This document shows positions 15,610 to 33,389 of a stretch of 33,389 bases of DNA, in pieces (positions within the stretch are counted from its first letter, which is position 1; each line of letters opens with the position of its first letter). The notes under the pieces were generated by a model, which worked only from the letters and a program-made list of their open reading frames with translations, was not told where the DNA came from and ran no database searches. This DNA comes from Alphaproteobacteria bacterium (GTDB lineage: Bacteria; Pseudomonadota; Alphaproteobacteria; ATCC43930; CGMCC-115725), in contig JASHNY010000149.1 of NCBI GenBank assembly GCA_030041385.1, positions 1 through 33,389 on the forward strand, in the 5' to 3' direction. The position numbers and the translations under genes were made by a program.

Positions 15610-16032
15610 CTATTCGGCTGCTTCCTTGACCGGGGCGGGAAGCGGCTCGGTGCCCGTCCAGGGATGTTCGGCGACGTCGAACAAGATCCCTTCGGGGCCG
15701 TAGAACTTGACCTCGAACCCGCCGGTGCGCTCGCGATCGGCTTGGTCCATGTAGTGCCGGCCACCGGCCGCCTCGACGATCTTGGCGGCATCGTCGACGT
15801 TCTCGACAAGGATGCCGAAATGGTGCAGGCCGGTGTAGTCGGCCCCCTTGCCGATCTGGTCGGTCTTGAACCTGAGGATCGCCAGGTCGATCGTCCCGTC
15901 GCTCAGGTGATAGCCATAAGCGAGCGGCCCGTCGCTCTTGCGCGCGATCTTAAAGTCGAACGCCTTGATGTAGAACTCGGCCATCGCGTCGGGGTCCTGG
16001 GCGGCGATGGCGATGTGGCGCAATTTGGCCAT
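15610..16032 (-). CDS. VOC (glyoxalase/dioxygenase fold) protein, downstream tandem copy
   Basis: A 140-residue vicinal-oxygen-chelate protein. Two beta-alpha-beta-beta-beta modules are visible, with putative metal ligands H6 in LRHIAIAA, the H of GLHHFGILV and the E of YGPEGILFDVAEH. VOC proteins include glyoxalases, ring-cleavage dioxygenases and resistance proteins; the exact role here is unknown. It is a paralog of the gene 26 nt upstream, with shared motifs along the whole length and an identical PLPAPVKEAAE tail. The start ATG 16032 has AAAGGA upstream. Its stop lies just before the probable start of the propeller dehydrogenase, so the three probably form an operon. Confidence 0.88.
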   Translation of the reverse strand: MAKLRHIAIAAQDPDAMAEFYIKAFDFKIARKSDGPLAYGYHLSDGTIDLAILRFKTDQIGKGADYTGLHHFGILVENVDDAAKIVEAAGGRHYMDQADRERTGGFEVKFYGPEGILFDVAEHPWTGTEPLPAPVKEAAE

Positions 16033-16058: not shown

Positions 16059-16484
16059 CTATTCCGCGGCTTCCTTGACCGGGGCGGGCAGCGGTTCGGC
16101 GCCGGCCCAGCCATGCTCGGCGATGTCGAACAGGATGTGTTCAGGGCCGAAAAACTTCTTCTCGAAATAGCCGGCCTGGTGACCGCCTTGGCCCTGGTCG
16201 ATGTAATGGGTGGCGCCGAGGCTTTCGAGCTTCTTCGAAAATTCTTCGACATCCTCGACCAGCACGCCGAAATGATGGATGCCGCGATAATCCATGCCCT
16301 TGCCGAGCTGGTCGGTCTTGAATTTGAGGATCGCCATGTTGAGCGTGCCGTCGCTAAGGAACACGCCGTCGGCGAGATACCCGTTCGGCCGCCCGACCTC
16401 CTTGAAATCGAACGCCTTCTTGTAGAACTCGGCCATCGCTTCCGGGTCTTCCGCGGCGATTGCGATATGGCGCAATTTGGGCAT
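16059..16484 (-). CDS. VOC (glyoxalase/dioxygenase fold) protein, upstream tandem copy
   Basis: A 141-residue VOC protein, paralogous to the next gene. It shares LRHIAIAA, DPEAMAEFY, KAFDFK, LSDGT, FKTDQ, a GIHHFGVLVEDV strand with His and ILFDIAEH. Differences cluster in the middle loop (about 95-110: QGQGGHQAGYF against the shorter copy's QADRERTGGF), where the substrate pocket of this fold usually lies. The start at ATG 16484 is fixed by AGGAGG six nt upstream; the open frame extends to 16910 but only antisense over the Nudix gene. It is the first gene of a three-gene minus-strand unit. Substrate unknown. Confidence 0.9.
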   Translation of the reverse strand: MPKLRHIAIAAEDPEAMAEFYKKAFDFKEVGRPNGYLADGVFLSDGTLNMAILKFKTDQLGKGMDYRGIHHFGVLVEDVEEFSKKLESLGATHYIDQGQGGHQAGYFEKKFFGPEHILFDIAEHGWAGAEPLPAPVKEAAE

Positions 16485-16533
16485 GGCGGCCTCCTGAAAA
16501 TTGGCTTGCTTCTTCTCTACCATGAGCGGCGGG

Positions 16534-21283: not shown

Positions 21284-21817
21284 TTACGGGCTCTCGGCCG
21301 TGGCTCCATTCGCGGCAGCCGCGAGGTAGAAGCGGCTCCACGCCTTCCGCCAGTCGATCGCCGCAACGGCAGGGCAATCCGCGGGGACTTCGAGCTGCAA
21401 TAGTTCCCAGGTCGGCCGGTACTGCGTCAGGCCGAACGCCGCGAGGACGTCGTACCTGACCCTCTGAAGCCAGACCTGCACGCGGTGGGGGTGGCTCCAG
21501 CTATGGCCGATATAGACGTATCGCCGGGCATAGCCTTGTTTGGGCGCCACCTGTAAAGGCGGCTCCTCGAAGCTCAGCGAACGTACGACGATCTCCAAAG
21601 GCCGGGCGCAGCCGGGGGCATCAAAAACCAGCTCGCGCACCTGCGTGTTGCGGATTTGCACTTCCTTGCGAAAGATCAGCCCATCGGCACGGGCCGCGCG
21701 CAGCACCGCCGGTTCGAGCCGACCGGGCGGGACGGTCCCGCCGGCGGCCTGCTCGCGGGCCGCAACCGTGCCGATCAGCAAGGCCGCGAAGACGGCATGA
21801 ACCGGCCACGCCCTCAT
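21284..21817 (-). CDS. Exported partner protein of the exosortase-like gene, unknown family
   Basis: A 177-residue protein with an N-terminal signal or anchor (VHAVFAALLIGTVAA, 6-20) and a soluble remainder. Two Cys (C70, C148) could pair. A conserved-looking core reads QGYARRYVYIGHSWSHPHRVQVWLQRV (about 94-120), and the C-terminus has several Trp. Its ATG (21817) overlaps the stop of the exosortase-like gene as ATGA, so the two are translationally coupled. Many exosortases are followed by a short accessory protein such as EpsI (DUF3485). Position and size fit that role, but I cannot recognise the EpsI motif here, and it carries no PEP-CTERM-like C-terminal signal that would make it a cargo. 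Function unknown. Confidence 0.75.
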   Translation of the reverse strand: MRAWPVHAVFAALLIGTVAAREQAAGGTVPPGRLEPAVLRAARADGLIFRKEVQIRNTQVRELVFDAPGCARPLEIVVRSLSFEEPPLQVAPKQGYARRYVYIGHSWSHPHRVQVWLQRVRYDVLAAFGLTQYRPTWELLQLEVPADCPAVAAIDWRKAWSRFYLAAAANGATAESP

Positions 21818-22728
21818 GTCGATGGCCGGGCCGGGCGCGTCCCGCAGAGACTGATCAGCAGCACCGAAAGCGCGGCCCCCAACGCGAAAATCTGGGCGCC
21901 GGCCCCGTCGTGCCAGAATTCGTACTGCGCCAGGCTCCAGGCCATGAAGCTCAGGCGAAGAATATTCCAGCCGACCATGGTCAGCGCGACGACGGCACCG
22001 ATCCACAAATCCCGGCGGTGCCAAAACTGATGCCGCAACCGGCTGATCGTCACCCAGCACAGCATGGCGACCGACAAATTGTGAAAGGCCGAGCACTGGT
22101 CGTACAGCACGATGCCGTAGCCGTCCGGCCCGACGATGACGTTGTTGTGCCACAGCGTGCCGGCGCGAAGGCCTTCGAGGATGGTGCCGACGACGGCGGT
22201 CTCGGCGCAAAGCAGCGGAAAGGCGAACAGGTGAAAGAAGACGTAGCCCCATAACTGCTGCACCGACAGCGCTGCAAGCACGATCGCGGCGGCGCGCAAT
22301 TTGGCGTCGCCGCGATACGTCCACAGCCAGTAGACCGCCATGCAGGTGGCCGCGACCCAGATCACGCGCGGCGTCGGCAACACCAGCGGGATGCAGGCGG
22401 CCGTCGCGATCAGCACGTCTTGCGCGCGGGCGGACGGCCCGGCGTCGCTCGCCATGAGCAGACGAAAGATCGCGTACCAGGCCATGTATTGGAAAAAGCC
22501 GACAGTGCCGAGGTCGGTGGCCAACTGCGCCAGCGGCGTCGAGGCCATCGTCCCGAAAACGCTGAACAGATGGTTGAAGAAAAGCACCGCGCAGACCCAG
22601 ATGAAGAGGTCTCGCCGGGGCAGTTCGAGGGTGCCGCCCCGCGCTCCGCCCGCGGCCCCGGCTGTGCAGAGGCGCAGCAACGCCGGGCGAACCCGCGGAA
22701 ATCCGGACGGCTGCAGCCCTCCTCTCAT
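21814..22728 (-). CDS. Exosortase/archaeosortase-like integral membrane cysteine protease-transpeptidase (atypical)
   Basis: A 304-residue protein with about eight membrane segments beginning near residue 41. The three invariant residues of the exosortase/archaeosortase superfamily are in order and context: C212 in YDQCSAFHNL at a membrane-face loop, R258 in GWNILRLSF and H273 in EFWHDGAGAQIF, followed by a last helix. In known members this Cys/Arg/His triad cleaves PEP-CTERM-like tails of exported proteins and attaches the product to a surface polymer. The usual CSG-type box after Cys is changed to CSAFHN, so this is a divergent type. The first 40 residues are Arg/Gly-rich and cytoplasmic; the start ATG 22728 has GGAG about 11 nt upstream, but a later start is possible. 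No PEP-CTERM-like cargo or polysaccharide locus is in the window. Confidence 0.78.
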   Translation of the reverse strand: MRGGLQPSGFPRVRPALLRLCTAGAAGGARGGTLELPRRDLFIWVCAVLFFNHLFSVFGTMASTPLAQLATDLGTVGFFQYMAWYAIFRLLMASDAGPSARAQDVLIATAACIPLVLPTPRVIWVAATCMAVYWLWTYRGDAKLRAAAIVLAALSVQQLWGYVFFHLFAFPLLCAETAVVGTILEGLRAGTLWHNNVIVGPDGYGIVLYDQCSAFHNLSVAMLCWVTISRLRHQFWHRRDLWIGAVVALTMVGWNILRLSFMAWSLAQYEFWHDGAGAQIFALGAALSVLLISLCGTRPARPST

Positions 22729-25542: not shown

Positions 25543-26736
25543 TCAGCGGTTGCGCTGCCAGTCGTCCTGCCACAGGAAATCGGGGCCCAATTGGTCGAGG
25601 CTCGGGCAGCCGATCTGGCCCATGACCAGGTCGATCTCGCCGCGGAAGATGTCGACCGCCTTCTTGACCCCGTCGAGCCCACCGGCGACCGCGCCGTACA
25701 ATGTCGGACGACCGAAAAAGCAGAACTCGGCGCCGAGGCACAGCGCGATCAGGATATCGGCGCCGCGGCGCACGCCGCTATCGAGCATGACCGTCATCCT
25801 GTCGCCGACCGCGCGCTTTACCGCCGGCAACACGTCGAGCGATGCCGGCGCCTGGTCGAGTTGCCGGGCGCCGTGGTTCGACACGATAATGCCGTCGCAG
25901 CCGATCTCGGCGCAGCGGATCGCGTCAGCCGGGCTCATGATGCCTTTGACGATCAGCTTGCGCGGGAACAGCTTGCGGTAGTGCTCCAATTCCCGCCAGG
26001 TCTGGGCATGCGCCGGCACCTGCGCCCGGTTGAACTTGATCGTATCTTCCGGGGTCGCGCCATTGGGCAGGTAGGGCAGCCAGTTGCCGAGTGCCGGGGT
26101 GCCGCCGTGCTTGATGTATTCCATGACCCAGCCGGGATGGGTCATCGCCTCGGCCAACAATGACGGCTTGAGGCTCAGGGCGGCGCGCAGCCAGTTGCCG
26201 CGGATGTTGGCGTAGCCGTTGCGGGTGTTGCGCTCGCGCTTGGAATGCACCGGCACATCGACGGTCAAGACCAGCGCATTAAGGCCCGCATCGGCGGTGC
26301 GCTTGATCAGGTCGTCGGAGATCTTGCCGTCCCTCGCGGCGTAGAGCTGGTACCAGGCGTTGTTCGGCGCGACCTTGGCCGCATCCTCGATCGTCTGGTT
26401 GCTGGCGCCCGACATGATGTAGGGGATGTTGGCCTCGCGCGCTGCCTCGGCCAGCATCATGTCGGCGCCGCGGCGGAACAGCCCGGCACTGCCGGTCGGG
26501 GAGATGCCGAACGGGCTGGAGAATTTCTGGCCGAAGATCGTCTGCGACTGGTCGCGCTTCGACACATCGACGAGGTAGCGCGGCAGCAGGTGATGCTTCT
26601 TGAAGGCTTCGGTGTTGCGGTCGAGCCCGCGCTCGTCTTCGAGCCCGCCCTCGATGAAGTCAAAGGCGACCTTGGGCAGGCGCCGCTTCGCCATCCGGTG
26701 CAAGTCTTCGATATTGATGGCGTCGTTCAGTCTCAT
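25543..26736 (-). CDS. FMN-dependent alpha-hydroxy-acid oxidase/dehydrogenase, copy 1
   Basis: A 397-residue FMN TIM-barrel enzyme of the glycolate oxidase/LldD/MdlB family. Catalytic residues are Y132 (WYQLYAARD), D160 (LTVDVPV), K264 (LIVKGIMSP), H288 and R291 (SNHGARQLD). The FMN-site segments DSGVRRGADI and GRPTLYG are intact. The N-terminal Tyr that binds the substrate carboxylate in spinach glycolate oxidase (Tyr24) is F27 here (AFDFIEGG), as in copy 2. EGGLEDERG resembles mandelate dehydrogenases. The enzyme oxidises an L-2-hydroxy acid to the 2-oxo acid. The start ATG 26736 has AAGGAG eight nt upstream. It follows the dehydrogenase gene after 175 nt and may have its own promoter, since it shares an upstream motif with copy 2. 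Confidence 0.92.
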   Translation of the reverse strand: MRLNDAINIEDLHRMAKRRLPKVAFDFIEGGLEDERGLDRNTEAFKKHHLLPRYLVDVSKRDQSQTIFGQKFSSPFGISPTGSAGLFRRGADMMLAEAAREANIPYIMSGASNQTIEDAAKVAPNNAWYQLYAARDGKISDDLIKRTADAGLNALVLTVDVPVHSKRERNTRNGYANIRGNWLRAALSLKPSLLAEAMTHPGWVMEYIKHGGTPALGNWLPYLPNGATPEDTIKFNRAQVPAHAQTWRELEHYRKLFPRKLIVKGIMSPADAIRCAEIGCDGIIVSNHGARQLDQAPASLDVLPAVKRAVGDRMTVMLDSGVRRGADILIALCLGAEFCFFGRPTLYGAVAGGLDGVKKAVDIFRGEIDLVMGQIGCPSLDQLGPDFLWQDDWQRNR

Positions 26737-28972: not shown

Positions 28973-30166
28973 TCAGCGATTGCGCTGCCACTCATCTTGC
29001 CACAAGAAATCGGGGCCCAATTGATCGAGGCTCGGGCAGCCGATCTGGCCCATGACCAGGTCGATCTCGTTGACGAAGATGTCGATCGCCTTCTTGACCC
29101 CGGGCAACCCGCCGGCCGCGGCACCGTACAATGTCGGCCGACCCATGAAGCAGAAATCGGCGCCGAGGCACAGCGCGATCAATATGTCGGCCCCGCGCCG
29201 CACGCCGCTGTCGAGCAGCAGCGTCAACTTGTCGCCGACCTGCTGCCGGATCGCCGGCAAGACGTCGAGCGAGCCCGGCGCCTGGTCGAGCTGGCGGCCG
29301 CCATGATTGGAAACAAGGATGCCGTCGCAACCGACATCGAGCGCGCGTTGCGCATCGGCCGGGCTCATGATGCCTTTGACGACAAGCGCGCGCGGAAACA
29401 GTTTGCGGTAGGCTTCGAGATCGCGCCACGTCTGCGCGTTGAAGGGGCGCACCGACGAGGCGAATTTGTAGACCTCCTCGGCGTCCGACCCGGCCGGCGC
29501 ATAAGGCTGCCAGTTGCCGAGCATCGGCGTGCCGCCGCCGCGGCGGAAATACTCGACAATCCAGCCCGGATGGGTCATCGCCTCGGCGAGGATCGAAGGT
29601 TTGAGGCTCAGCGCCTGCAACAGCCCGCCGCGGACATTGGCAAACCCGTTGCGGATGTTGCGCTCGCGCTTCGAGCCGACCGGGGTATCGACGGTCAGTA
29701 CCAGCGCCCCCAGTCCCGCATCGGCGGTGCGCTTGATCAGGTCGGCGTTGATCTCCGGCTTCCTCGCGGCATAGAGCTGATACCAGTGGTTCTTTGGCGC
29801 GACCTTGGCCGCCGCCTCGATCGCATCGTTGCTGGCGCCCGACATGATATAAGGGATGTTGGCGTCGCGCGCCGCCTCGGCCAGCATCAGGTCGGCGTGA
29901 TAGCGGAACAGCCCTGCCCCGCCCGTCGGCGAGATGCCGAACGGGCTTGAAAACTTCTGGCCGAAGATCGTCCTCGTCTGGTCGCGAACCGACACGTCGA
30001 CGAGATAGCGCGGCAACAGCCGATGCTTGTGAAACGCCGAGGTATTCGTCTCCAGCCCGCGCTCGTCTTCGAGACCGCCCTCGATGAAATCGAAGGCGAT
30101 CTTCGGCAGGCGACGTTTCGCCATGCGGTGCAGGTCTTCGATATTGACGACATCGTCGAGCTTCAT
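28973..30166 (-). CDS. FMN-dependent alpha-hydroxy-acid oxidase/dehydrogenase, copy 2
   Basis: A 397-residue paralog of the enzyme at 25543-26736, identical in length and very similar throughout, including an identical QLGPDFLWQD segment near the C-terminus. Catalytic residues are conserved (WYQLYAARK, LTVDTPVGSKRE, LVVKGIMSP, SNHGGRQLD), and here the usual SNHGGRQ is kept where copy 1 has SNHGARQ. The glycolate oxidase Tyr24 position is again Phe (AFDFIEGG). It differs from copy 1 in the loop around 205-245 (RRGGGTPMLGN..., SSVRPFNAQ), where substrate-covering loop 4 lies, so substrate range may differ. The start ATG 30166 has GGGGAG nine nt upstream; GTG 30175 is an alternative. First gene of the five-gene cluster. 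Confidence 0.92.
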   Translation of the reverse strand: MKLDDVVNIEDLHRMAKRRLPKIAFDFIEGGLEDERGLETNTSAFHKHRLLPRYLVDVSVRDQTRTIFGQKFSSPFGISPTGGAGLFRYHADLMLAEAARDANIPYIMSGASNDAIEAAAKVAPKNHWYQLYAARKPEINADLIKRTADAGLGALVLTVDTPVGSKRERNIRNGFANVRGGLLQALSLKPSILAEAMTHPGWIVEYFRRGGGTPMLGNWQPYAPAGSDAEEVYKFASSVRPFNAQTWRDLEAYRKLFPRALVVKGIMSPADAQRALDVGCDGILVSNHGGRQLDQAPGSLDVLPAIRQQVGDKLTLLLDSGVRRGADILIALCLGADFCFMGRPTLYGAAAGGLPGVKKAIDIFVNEIDLVMGQIGCPSLDQLGPDFLWQDEWQRNR

Positions 30167-30243: not shown

Positions 30244-30675
30244 TCAGATGTCGGCGACCGGCACCCCCAGCGCGTGTGCCGCCGACGCCGTCGCGCGGTC
30301 GAAGGTCGCGAGCGTCGCGCCGAGCCGTCGGGCAATCGCGATGTGGATCGCATCGGGCGTCCTTAGCGGCAGATCGAGGCGGCGCAGAAACTCCGTTGCC
30401 ATTGCAACGTCGACAGCGGAAATCCCAGCTCTATCCGGTATGGTCGCGATCCAGTGGTCAAACGCCGAGAGCACGAGCTGGGCCTCGTCGATTGGAAGTT
30501 CTCTTGTGCGAACCCGCCGCGCGATAGCGGAGGCAAATTCCGCCGCCCCGAAATCGCTGACGATCAGAATACCACCGTGTGCGTGAGCGAAATCGTCCGC
30601 GCGAGCGCTGGCTGGCTCGGCTGTCAGCAAGGCGACAAGAAAGCTGGCGTCGAGATAGAGGTCTACCTCTCCCAC
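30244..30675 (-). CDS. PIN-domain toxin (VapC-like ribonuclease)
   Basis: A 143-residue PIN-domain protein. Conserved acidic residues of the metal-dependent nuclease site are visible: the Asp of YLDASFLVALL near the N-terminus, the Glu of GAAEFASAIA, the Asp of LRTPDAIHIA and the Asp of LATFDRATA near the C-terminus. VapC toxins cleave tRNA or rRNA and are held inactive by the cognate antitoxin. No ATG is near the domain start; GTG 30675 is the likely start, overlapping the antitoxin gene by 13 nt with GAGGA directly before it. The overlap implies coupled translation. A longer frame to 30864 is out-of-frame antitoxin sequence. Confidence 0.88.
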   Translation of the reverse strand: MGEVDLYLDASFLVALLTAEPASARADDFAHAHGGILIVSDFGAAEFASAIARRVRTRELPIDEAQLVLSAFDHWIATIPDRAGISAVDVAMATEFLRRLDLPLRTPDAIHIAIARRLGATLATFDRATASAAHALGVPVADI

Positions 30676-30917
30676 TCCTCGTCCCGCATCTGGCTGAGCA
30701 GGGTGCCGGCATCGGTCTTTGCTGGAGTTAGCCGTGCCCGATGCGCCTGCAGCCACTCGAAATCGGCCTCGGTCATGCGACGCGGCGCGGATTTGACGGG
30801 CCGCAGCTCGACCACCGGCTGGCCATGGCGGGTGATCACCACGCTCTCGCCCTTGAGCGCGCAATTGATCAGCTCGGAGAGCTTGTTTTTCGCTTCGGCG
30901 ACGCTGTGGGTGCTCAT
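30663..30917 (-). CDS. Phd/YefM-family antitoxin
   Basis: An 84-residue antitoxin. The N-terminal VAEAKNKLSELINCALKGESVVITRHGQPVVELRP is the Phd/YefM DNA-binding and dimerisation domain; the C-terminal half (about 45-84) is charged and would wrap around the toxin. It should bind and neutralise the PIN toxin encoded just downstream and repress the operon. ATG 30917 has no Shine-Dalgarno sequence, and the predicted -10 element ends only six nt before it, suggesting a leaderless transcript. An inverted repeat at 30924-30948 covers the promoter. Confidence 0.92.
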   Translation of the reverse strand: MSTHSVAEAKNKLSELINCALKGESVVITRHGQPVVELRPVKSAPRRMTEADFEWLQAHRARLTPAKTDAGTLLSQMRDEEWER

Positions 30918-32735: not shown

Positions 32736-33389
32736 ATGAGCCGCAGCACGATTTCGATCTTTCAGATTTTCGAGATGTTCCCCAATCAGGAGACCGCGCG
32801 GGTTTATCTGGAAAGCCGGCTCTGGCCGAATGGCGTCCGTTGCCCCGTCTGCGGTCTCGGCGAGCGTATCACGACCCGAAAGGGCGGCTTCTACCGCTGC
32901 AACCAGTGCAAGGAAGACTTCACCGTCCGTACCGGCACGATCTTCGAGCGGTCGCACGTCCCGCTGCACAAGTGGATTTATGCGATGTACCTGGTCGTAA
33001 CGGCCCGCAAGGGCGTCTCGTCCATGCAGCTCGCCAAGGAGATCGGCGTCACTCAGAAGACCGCTTGGTTCATTCTCGGCAGGCTCCGTGAGGCGTGCGG
33101 CGACAAGTTTGAGAAGCTGAGCGGGATCGTCGAAATTGACGAGACCTATATCGGCGGACTCGCCGAGAACATGCACAAGGACAAGCGCGCGAACATGAAG
33201 CCAGGCGGTCTGAGCAAAACCGCCGTCATTGGTATGCGCGAGCGGGGTGGCCGCACGAAGGCAAAGACGATCCCCCGCACTGATCGCGTGACCCTGGAAG
33301 CGGCGATCGTCGAGAGCGTGGAGAAGGGCTCGACCCTGCACACCGACGAAGCGCGCGCCTATCTGGGGCTGACCGCGCTCGATTACGAG
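32736..33389 (+). CDS. IS1595-family (ISXO2-like) transposase, 3' end outside the window
   Basis: An open frame of 218 codons that runs off the end without a stop. The N-terminal zinc ribbon typical of IS1595 transposases has C36-C39 (CPVCG) and C55-C58 (CNQCK). A helix-turn-helix-like region follows (AKEIGVTQKTAWFILGRLR). The DDE-type catalytic core starts with D135 (VEIDETYIGG), with a second Asp, D204 (LHTDEARAY); the last catalytic residue lies beyond the window. It begins at ATG 32736 with GAGGGG upstream. So far it is intact. Family members move by cut-and-paste or copy mechanisms and usually leave 8-bp target duplications. Confidence 0.92.
   Translation, partial: MSRSTISIFQIFEMFPNQETARVYLESRLWPNGVRCPVCGLGERITTRKGGFYRCNQCKEDFTVRTGTIFERSHVPLHKWIYAMYLVVTARKGVSSMQLAKEIGVTQKTAWFILGRLREACGDKFEKLSGIVEIDETYIGGLAENMHKDKRANMKPGGLSKTAVIGMRERGGRTKAKTIPRTDRVTLEAAIVESVEKGSTLHTDEARAYLGLTALDYE

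Follow-up and report, generated by a model that had tools for sequence, protein, structure and literature searches.

A pair of overlapping genes in an alphaproteobacterial draft genome raises the question of whether an exosortase-like membrane enzyme, standing apart from any polysaccharide locus, can form a protein-sorting system together with a partner and a cargo of its own. The window analysed here, i.e. the whole 33,389-nucleotide stretch of DNA, comes from a fragmented assembly (G000; 264 contigs). On its reverse strand, the gene of an exosortase-superfamily membrane protein (21814–22728; 304 aa) is followed by that of an accessory protein, hereafter the partner (21284–21817; 177 aa), which has an N-terminal membrane helix or signal and then an alpha/beta domain. 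The first-pass annotation had placed both open reading frames at these positions and on this strand, with the stop codon of the enzyme gene and the start codon of the partner gene overlapping in the sequence ATGA (21814–21817, reverse strand), and we find them as described. The overlap provides a basis for translational coupling, and the same four-base overlap is found in four other genomes (G035, G166, G363, and G146) and in Blastochloris. The start codon of the enzyme gene is uncertain (alternatives lie around 22680), since conservation is poor over the first ~35 residues, and no promoter-like site was found. The neighbours of the pair belong to ordinary metabolism (a gamma-glutamyltranspeptidase, a solute-binding protein, an SDR, an MFS transporter, and an FMN-dependent dehydrogenase); neither a polysaccharide locus nor a gene product with a tripartite sorting tail is present within the window.

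By its sequence, the enzyme belongs to the exosortase/archaeosortase superfamily (TIGR04178), though it is not a classical EpsH. Its match to TIGR04178 is borderline in hmmscan (E 6e-4; 20.0 bits, against a cut-off of 23) and lies above the 23-bit cut-off in a genome search (23.5 bits), whereas the scores of its relatives range from no hit to 27.9 bits. PF09721, the model of the classical EpsH exosortase, does not match the window enzyme. Of these two models, both among those proposed for the search at the outset, the first thus gives a real but weak match and the second none. Whole families were compared as well: in a profile–profile alignment, the enzyme family matches 29 other alphaproteobacterial exosortases with 95.9% probability (E 6e-9), and C212, R258, and H273 fall in register with the Cys, Arg, and His of these proteins, as had been supposed for the catalytic columns.

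The conservation of these residues is likewise observed directly. Across 14 aligned relatives, whose identity to the window protein is 16–46%, invariance is limited to N196, G203, C212, N255, R258, H273, and G277, and a chance occurrence of Cys, Arg, and His among only seven invariant positions at such low identity can be set aside. The invariants of EpsH are six residues in three motifs, Cys-x-Gly, Asn-x-x-Arg, and His-x-x-x-Gly (Haft 2006; PMC1569441), and five of the seven positions (C212, N255, R258, H273, and G277) correspond to them. Cys212, the presumed nucleophile (codon 22093–22095, reverse strand), lies in the box CSAFHN and aligns with the classical Cys. Arg258 (21955–21957, reverse strand) lies in N255-I-L-R258, an Asn-x-x-Arg motif, and His273 (21910–21912, reverse strand) in H273-D-G-A-G277, a His-x-x-x-Gly motif, both as published (PMC1569441). 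The first-pass annotation had these three residues and their contexts (CSAFHN, NILR, and HDGAGAQIF) right. At the position of the sixth EpsH invariant, the Gly of Cys-x-Gly, the family has Ala, Ser, or Val: the window enzyme reads CSA, and CAG is retained only in G075, one of the 15 family members. Members of the superfamily are expected to have about eight membrane helices; the AlphaFold model of the enzyme has about eight long helices, at a mean pLDDT of only 66. No fold match above background was found among solved structures (best Z 7.5, to a helical protein; also searched with Foldseek), and a sequence search found no solved relative.

Within the superfamily, the enzyme is best read, from its sequence, as a divergent exosortase of a subfamily that as yet lacks a name. 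Neither it nor its partner matches a named NCBIfam or Pfam subfamily, and in a phylogenetic tree the 15 members stand apart from the 29 other alphaproteobacterial exosortases with 99/98 support. Alternatively, the family could be a known, named exosortase type that has diverged beyond the reach of current models, a reading encouraged by the fact that members match several such types below threshold (cyanoexosortases B and C, XrtQ, XrtX, ArtD, and ArtE), with cyanoexosortases B and C and archaeosortases D and E (NCBIfam) providing the best named matches of several members. However, no member reaches, or even approaches, the cut-off of a named NCBIfam subfamily (best 16–32 bits versus 95–300), and we consider this alternative unlikely, even though the tree, which otherwise opposes it, left out other named exosortase types and has long branches.

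The family extends well beyond the window. Two genomes of the same family contain relatives of the enzyme (46% and 24% identical), and a search of the class pointed to about a dozen genomes with relatives, although two of its matches (G385 and G337) are short and weak. Used alone as a query against GTDB contigs, the window protein found no relative, and the 14-row alignment contains no stretch conserved enough for scanning; scanning with three close rows of the alignment did give matches. The pair is present in several alphaproteobacterial families, and the named strains with the enzyme family are Blastochloris sulfoviridis, Rhizobium gallicum, and Microvirga ossetica. In one RefSeq record with gene annotation, that of Rhizobium sp. 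WL3, both genes of the pair are listed as ‘hypothetical protein’. Many of the relatives' pairs sit in polysaccharide loci, and the absence of a polymer locus is therefore a property of the window copy rather than of the family. Acetyltransf_6 (FemAB/CelD-like) genes lie on the contig of the G035 pair (L009:5823-6923) and just upstream of the G392 pair (L055:11178-12290); a link to the pair is possible, but the family is common.

The proposed test of whether the pair is conserved across genomes came out positive. In all 17 two-gene copies (the 14 aligned copies, Blastochloris sulfoviridis DSM 729, and two Rhizobium plasmid loci), the partner gene lies immediately downstream of the enzyme gene, mostly overlapping it. 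The two are joined into a single 479-aa frame, i.e. a fusion, in Microvirga ossetica. That they are always paired, and once fused, favours a physical complex of the two proteins. Taken with the profile matches and the register of the triad, the conserved or fused pair also upholds the proposal made from the sequence at the outset, namely a new exosortase subtype with a dedicated accessory protein.

The partner has two conserved Cys (C70 and C148), and its model shows a fairly confident alpha/beta domain behind the N-terminal helix (pLDDT 77). Searches returned no Pfam or NCBIfam match of note and no clear fold match among solved structures (best Z 5.6; Foldseek was also used). Its position resembles that in exosortases with a fused or adjacent EpsI domain (TIGR02914), in which an extracytoplasmic partner is likewise directly downstream or fused, and the Microvirga fusion has the same layout as exosortase–EpsI fusions. 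An identification as EpsI (TIGR02914/DUF3485) was nevertheless rejected: the Pfam and NCBIfam models gave no hit, and hhalign returned a probability of 0.1% when the partner was compared with what follows the exosortase domain in 23 long exosortases, a region taken as EpsI. The accessory thus has no detectable homology to EpsI in this comparison.

Cargo could be recognised first among the relatives, whose candidate cargo proteins share a C-terminal tail made up of the motif (A/V)PxPxxGxGL, a transmembrane helix, and an Arg cluster. A small exported protein with this tail is encoded directly upstream of the enzyme gene in G243 (...APAPLLGVGLP...), G134 (...MPGPIAGAGLP...), G146 (...APGPDFGLGA...), G392b, Blastochloris sulfoviridis (...APGPDVDIGL...), and Microvirga (...VPGPIAGAGLP...); the last of these was found later and therefore serves as an independent check. 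In G392b, two tail proteins flank the pair, both with ...VPGPLEGVGLP.... Four further genomes (G135, G249, G075, and G235) encode a DUF4114 protein with a tail of similar kind within the polysaccharide locus that holds the pair, and in G166 a DUF4114 protein truncated by the contig end follows the pair. A literature search for exosortases with DUF4114 found nothing. Around the Rhizobium copies of the pair, no cargo was found, and the G134 cargo tail as a query gave no plasmid match. Additionally, G363 encodes two exported proteins of ~220 aa with a PxPxxGxG-type tail (L222:949-1608 and on L235), one of them DUF642/choice-of-anchor-like, so that some genomes hold more than one cargo. G035 has some ten PEP-CTERM proteins of the classical kind that score over the cut-off (L109, L138, and others).

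A tail model built from ten sequences of relatives, none of them from the window's genome, was then applied to that genome. It matched one place at E 1.2e-4 (C117:16785-16877), the next match there having an E of 0.19; earlier models of two and four sequences had missed it. The matched segment coincides exactly with the C-terminus of a signal-peptide-bearing protein of 107 aa (C117:16557-16880), which begins MKTVALALWLSLSVTPAFA and ends HGAPAPLIGLGLQGALAIGGVLLGARLLRRRK (tail in short form: ...GAPAPLIGLGLQGALAIGGVLLGARLLRRRK). The protein is small, exported, and rich in His, Gly, Pro, and Asn. The first-pass annotation had noted that no cargo gene lies beside the pair and had called for a genome-wide scan for proteins ending in a motif, a transmembrane helix, and an Arg cluster. 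Within the window, the absence holds; in the genome, such a protein does exist, on contig C117 and unlinked to the pair. Profile searches found no other exosortase in this genome, no PEP-CTERM cargo over the cut-off, and no DUF4114 cargo, and the window enzyme is consequently the only known candidate for processing the C117 tail.

That the tail travels with the pair was observed in two genome surveys. Across 61 related genomes, at E <= 0.05, C-termini of small exported proteins were matched only in G000, G035, and G008, which are exactly the three carriers of the pair among them; the other matches examined were internal to larger proteins, at the ends of multi-helix proteins, or not in genes, while a few others, close to a contig end or lacking an in-frame start codon, were not classifiable. 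The model is short and included the G035 tail but not those of G000 and G008, and only some of the candidates in each genome were scored (132 of 154 for G000). By hand computation, the chance of two blind matches falling in the two blind carriers, with none in the 58 other genomes, is 1/1770. Across 385 genomes of the class, with the best 21 of 62 candidates scored per genome, every real C-terminal match at E <= 0.003 was in a carrier, most carriers having contributed training tails. These surveys bear on a second alternative, which we also hold to be improbable: that the C-terminal helix of the C117 protein serves only as an anchor, the tail being similar by convergence or composition. Short low-complexity tails do look alike, and an E of 1.2e-4 is modest evidence for one genome, but the restriction of tail C-termini to pair carriers among the 61 genomes speaks against it, as does the near identity of the C117 motif GAPAPLIGLGL to EAPAPLIGYGL in a protein of G035 (...EAPAPLIGYGLP...), the genome whose enzyme is closest to that of the window.

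We therefore consider it highly probable that the two genes supply the enzyme and the accessory of a dedicated protein-sorting system, with the caveat that catalysis and the fate of the cargo are inferred and that there is no biochemical evidence for either. By analogy with the PEP-CTERM system (PMC1569441), the cargo would be exported by Sec, its C-terminal helix keeping it in the inner membrane. The enzyme probably recognises (A/V)PxPxxGxGL, the transmembrane helix, and the Arg cluster on this Sec-exported protein, and Cys212, aided by Arg258 and His273, may cut near the PxP motif on the periplasmic face of the inner membrane; both cleavage and its site are inferences. The cleaved cargo would be passed to the envelope or cell surface, a destination that is again inferred, as are the acceptor and the function of the cargo. 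The partner is predicted to be a membrane-tethered periplasmic protein in complex with the enzyme and presumably holds or positions the substrate or the acceptor, an inferred role in which it would stand to the enzyme as EpsI stands to EpsH. The one small exported protein on C117 would be the cargo in the window's genome. Weighing against the proposal are the borderline TIGR04178 score, the loss of the Gly of Cys-x-Gly, and the lack of linkage between cargo and pair in three genomes (the window's, G035, and G008), together with the limits of the short tail model and its incomplete scoring, the training tails taken from most carriers in the class survey, the fragmented draft, and the Rhizobium copies without a cargo nearby. 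The lost Gly and the many relatives in polysaccharide loci could instead point to a protease-dead exosortase-like protein serving polysaccharide assembly or another membrane function, with a merely structural triad, but this is very unlikely given the invariance of Cys, Arg, and His at 16–46% identity and a tripartite tail that accompanies the pair even without a nearby polysaccharide locus.

A more ambitious version of the sorting-system reading is possible but doubtful: a complete three-part Gram-negative sorting machine that can do without a polysaccharide locus, comprising the enzyme, its cleavage chemistry altered by the loss of Gly, an obligate periplasmic partner whose conserved Cys pair takes part in transfer (bearing the acceptor or in a redox role), and one small His-rich cargo delivered to the surface.

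Exosortases are still known mostly by inference, partly owing to the many cargo proteins of the classical systems. The pair and the C117 cargo look like a small self-contained system that sorts one surface protein and is unnamed in current databases; the titles and abstracts of recent exosortase papers describe no such system. A system of this size (a single enzyme and partner with one or a few small cargo proteins), present in named strains, makes the role of the accessory and the destination of the cargo directly testable. The tail signal, moreover, offers a means of finding cargo in other alphaproteobacteria.

The closest known counterpart is the EpsH/exosortase–PEP-CTERM system (PF09721; PMC1569441), in which a polytopic membrane protein likewise carries Cys, Asn-x-x-Arg, and His-x-x-x-Gly in this order, the cargo tail consists of a motif, a transmembrane helix, and an Arg cluster, and the genes are often found in exopolysaccharide loci. 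The window family differs in its Cys box (mostly C(S/A)(S/A) in place of Cys-x-Gly), in lacking a PF09721 match, in a tail of PxPxxGxGL rather than PEP, in typically having one or few cargo proteins, and in an accessory that is not detectably EpsI. Rhombosortase and its single GlyGly-CTERM protein (PMC3237569) offer a parallel of one enzyme with one target, whose gene is often adjacent; the enzyme is unrelated, however, and the window's genome encodes the target away from the pair.

Elsewhere in the window, all on the reverse strand, 15610–16032 and 16059–16523 encode adjacent paralogues resembling small glyoxalase/VOC-type proteins, and 30244–30917 resembles a PIN-domain toxin and antitoxin pair. 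Two similar FMN-dependent alpha-hydroxy-acid dehydrogenase genes (25543–26736, a Pfam match, and 28973–30166, also reverse strand) are separated by ~2.2 kb containing an SDR and a 2-hydroxyacid dehydrogenase. At 32736–33389, on the forward strand, an IS1595-type transposase gene is interrupted by the end of the contig.
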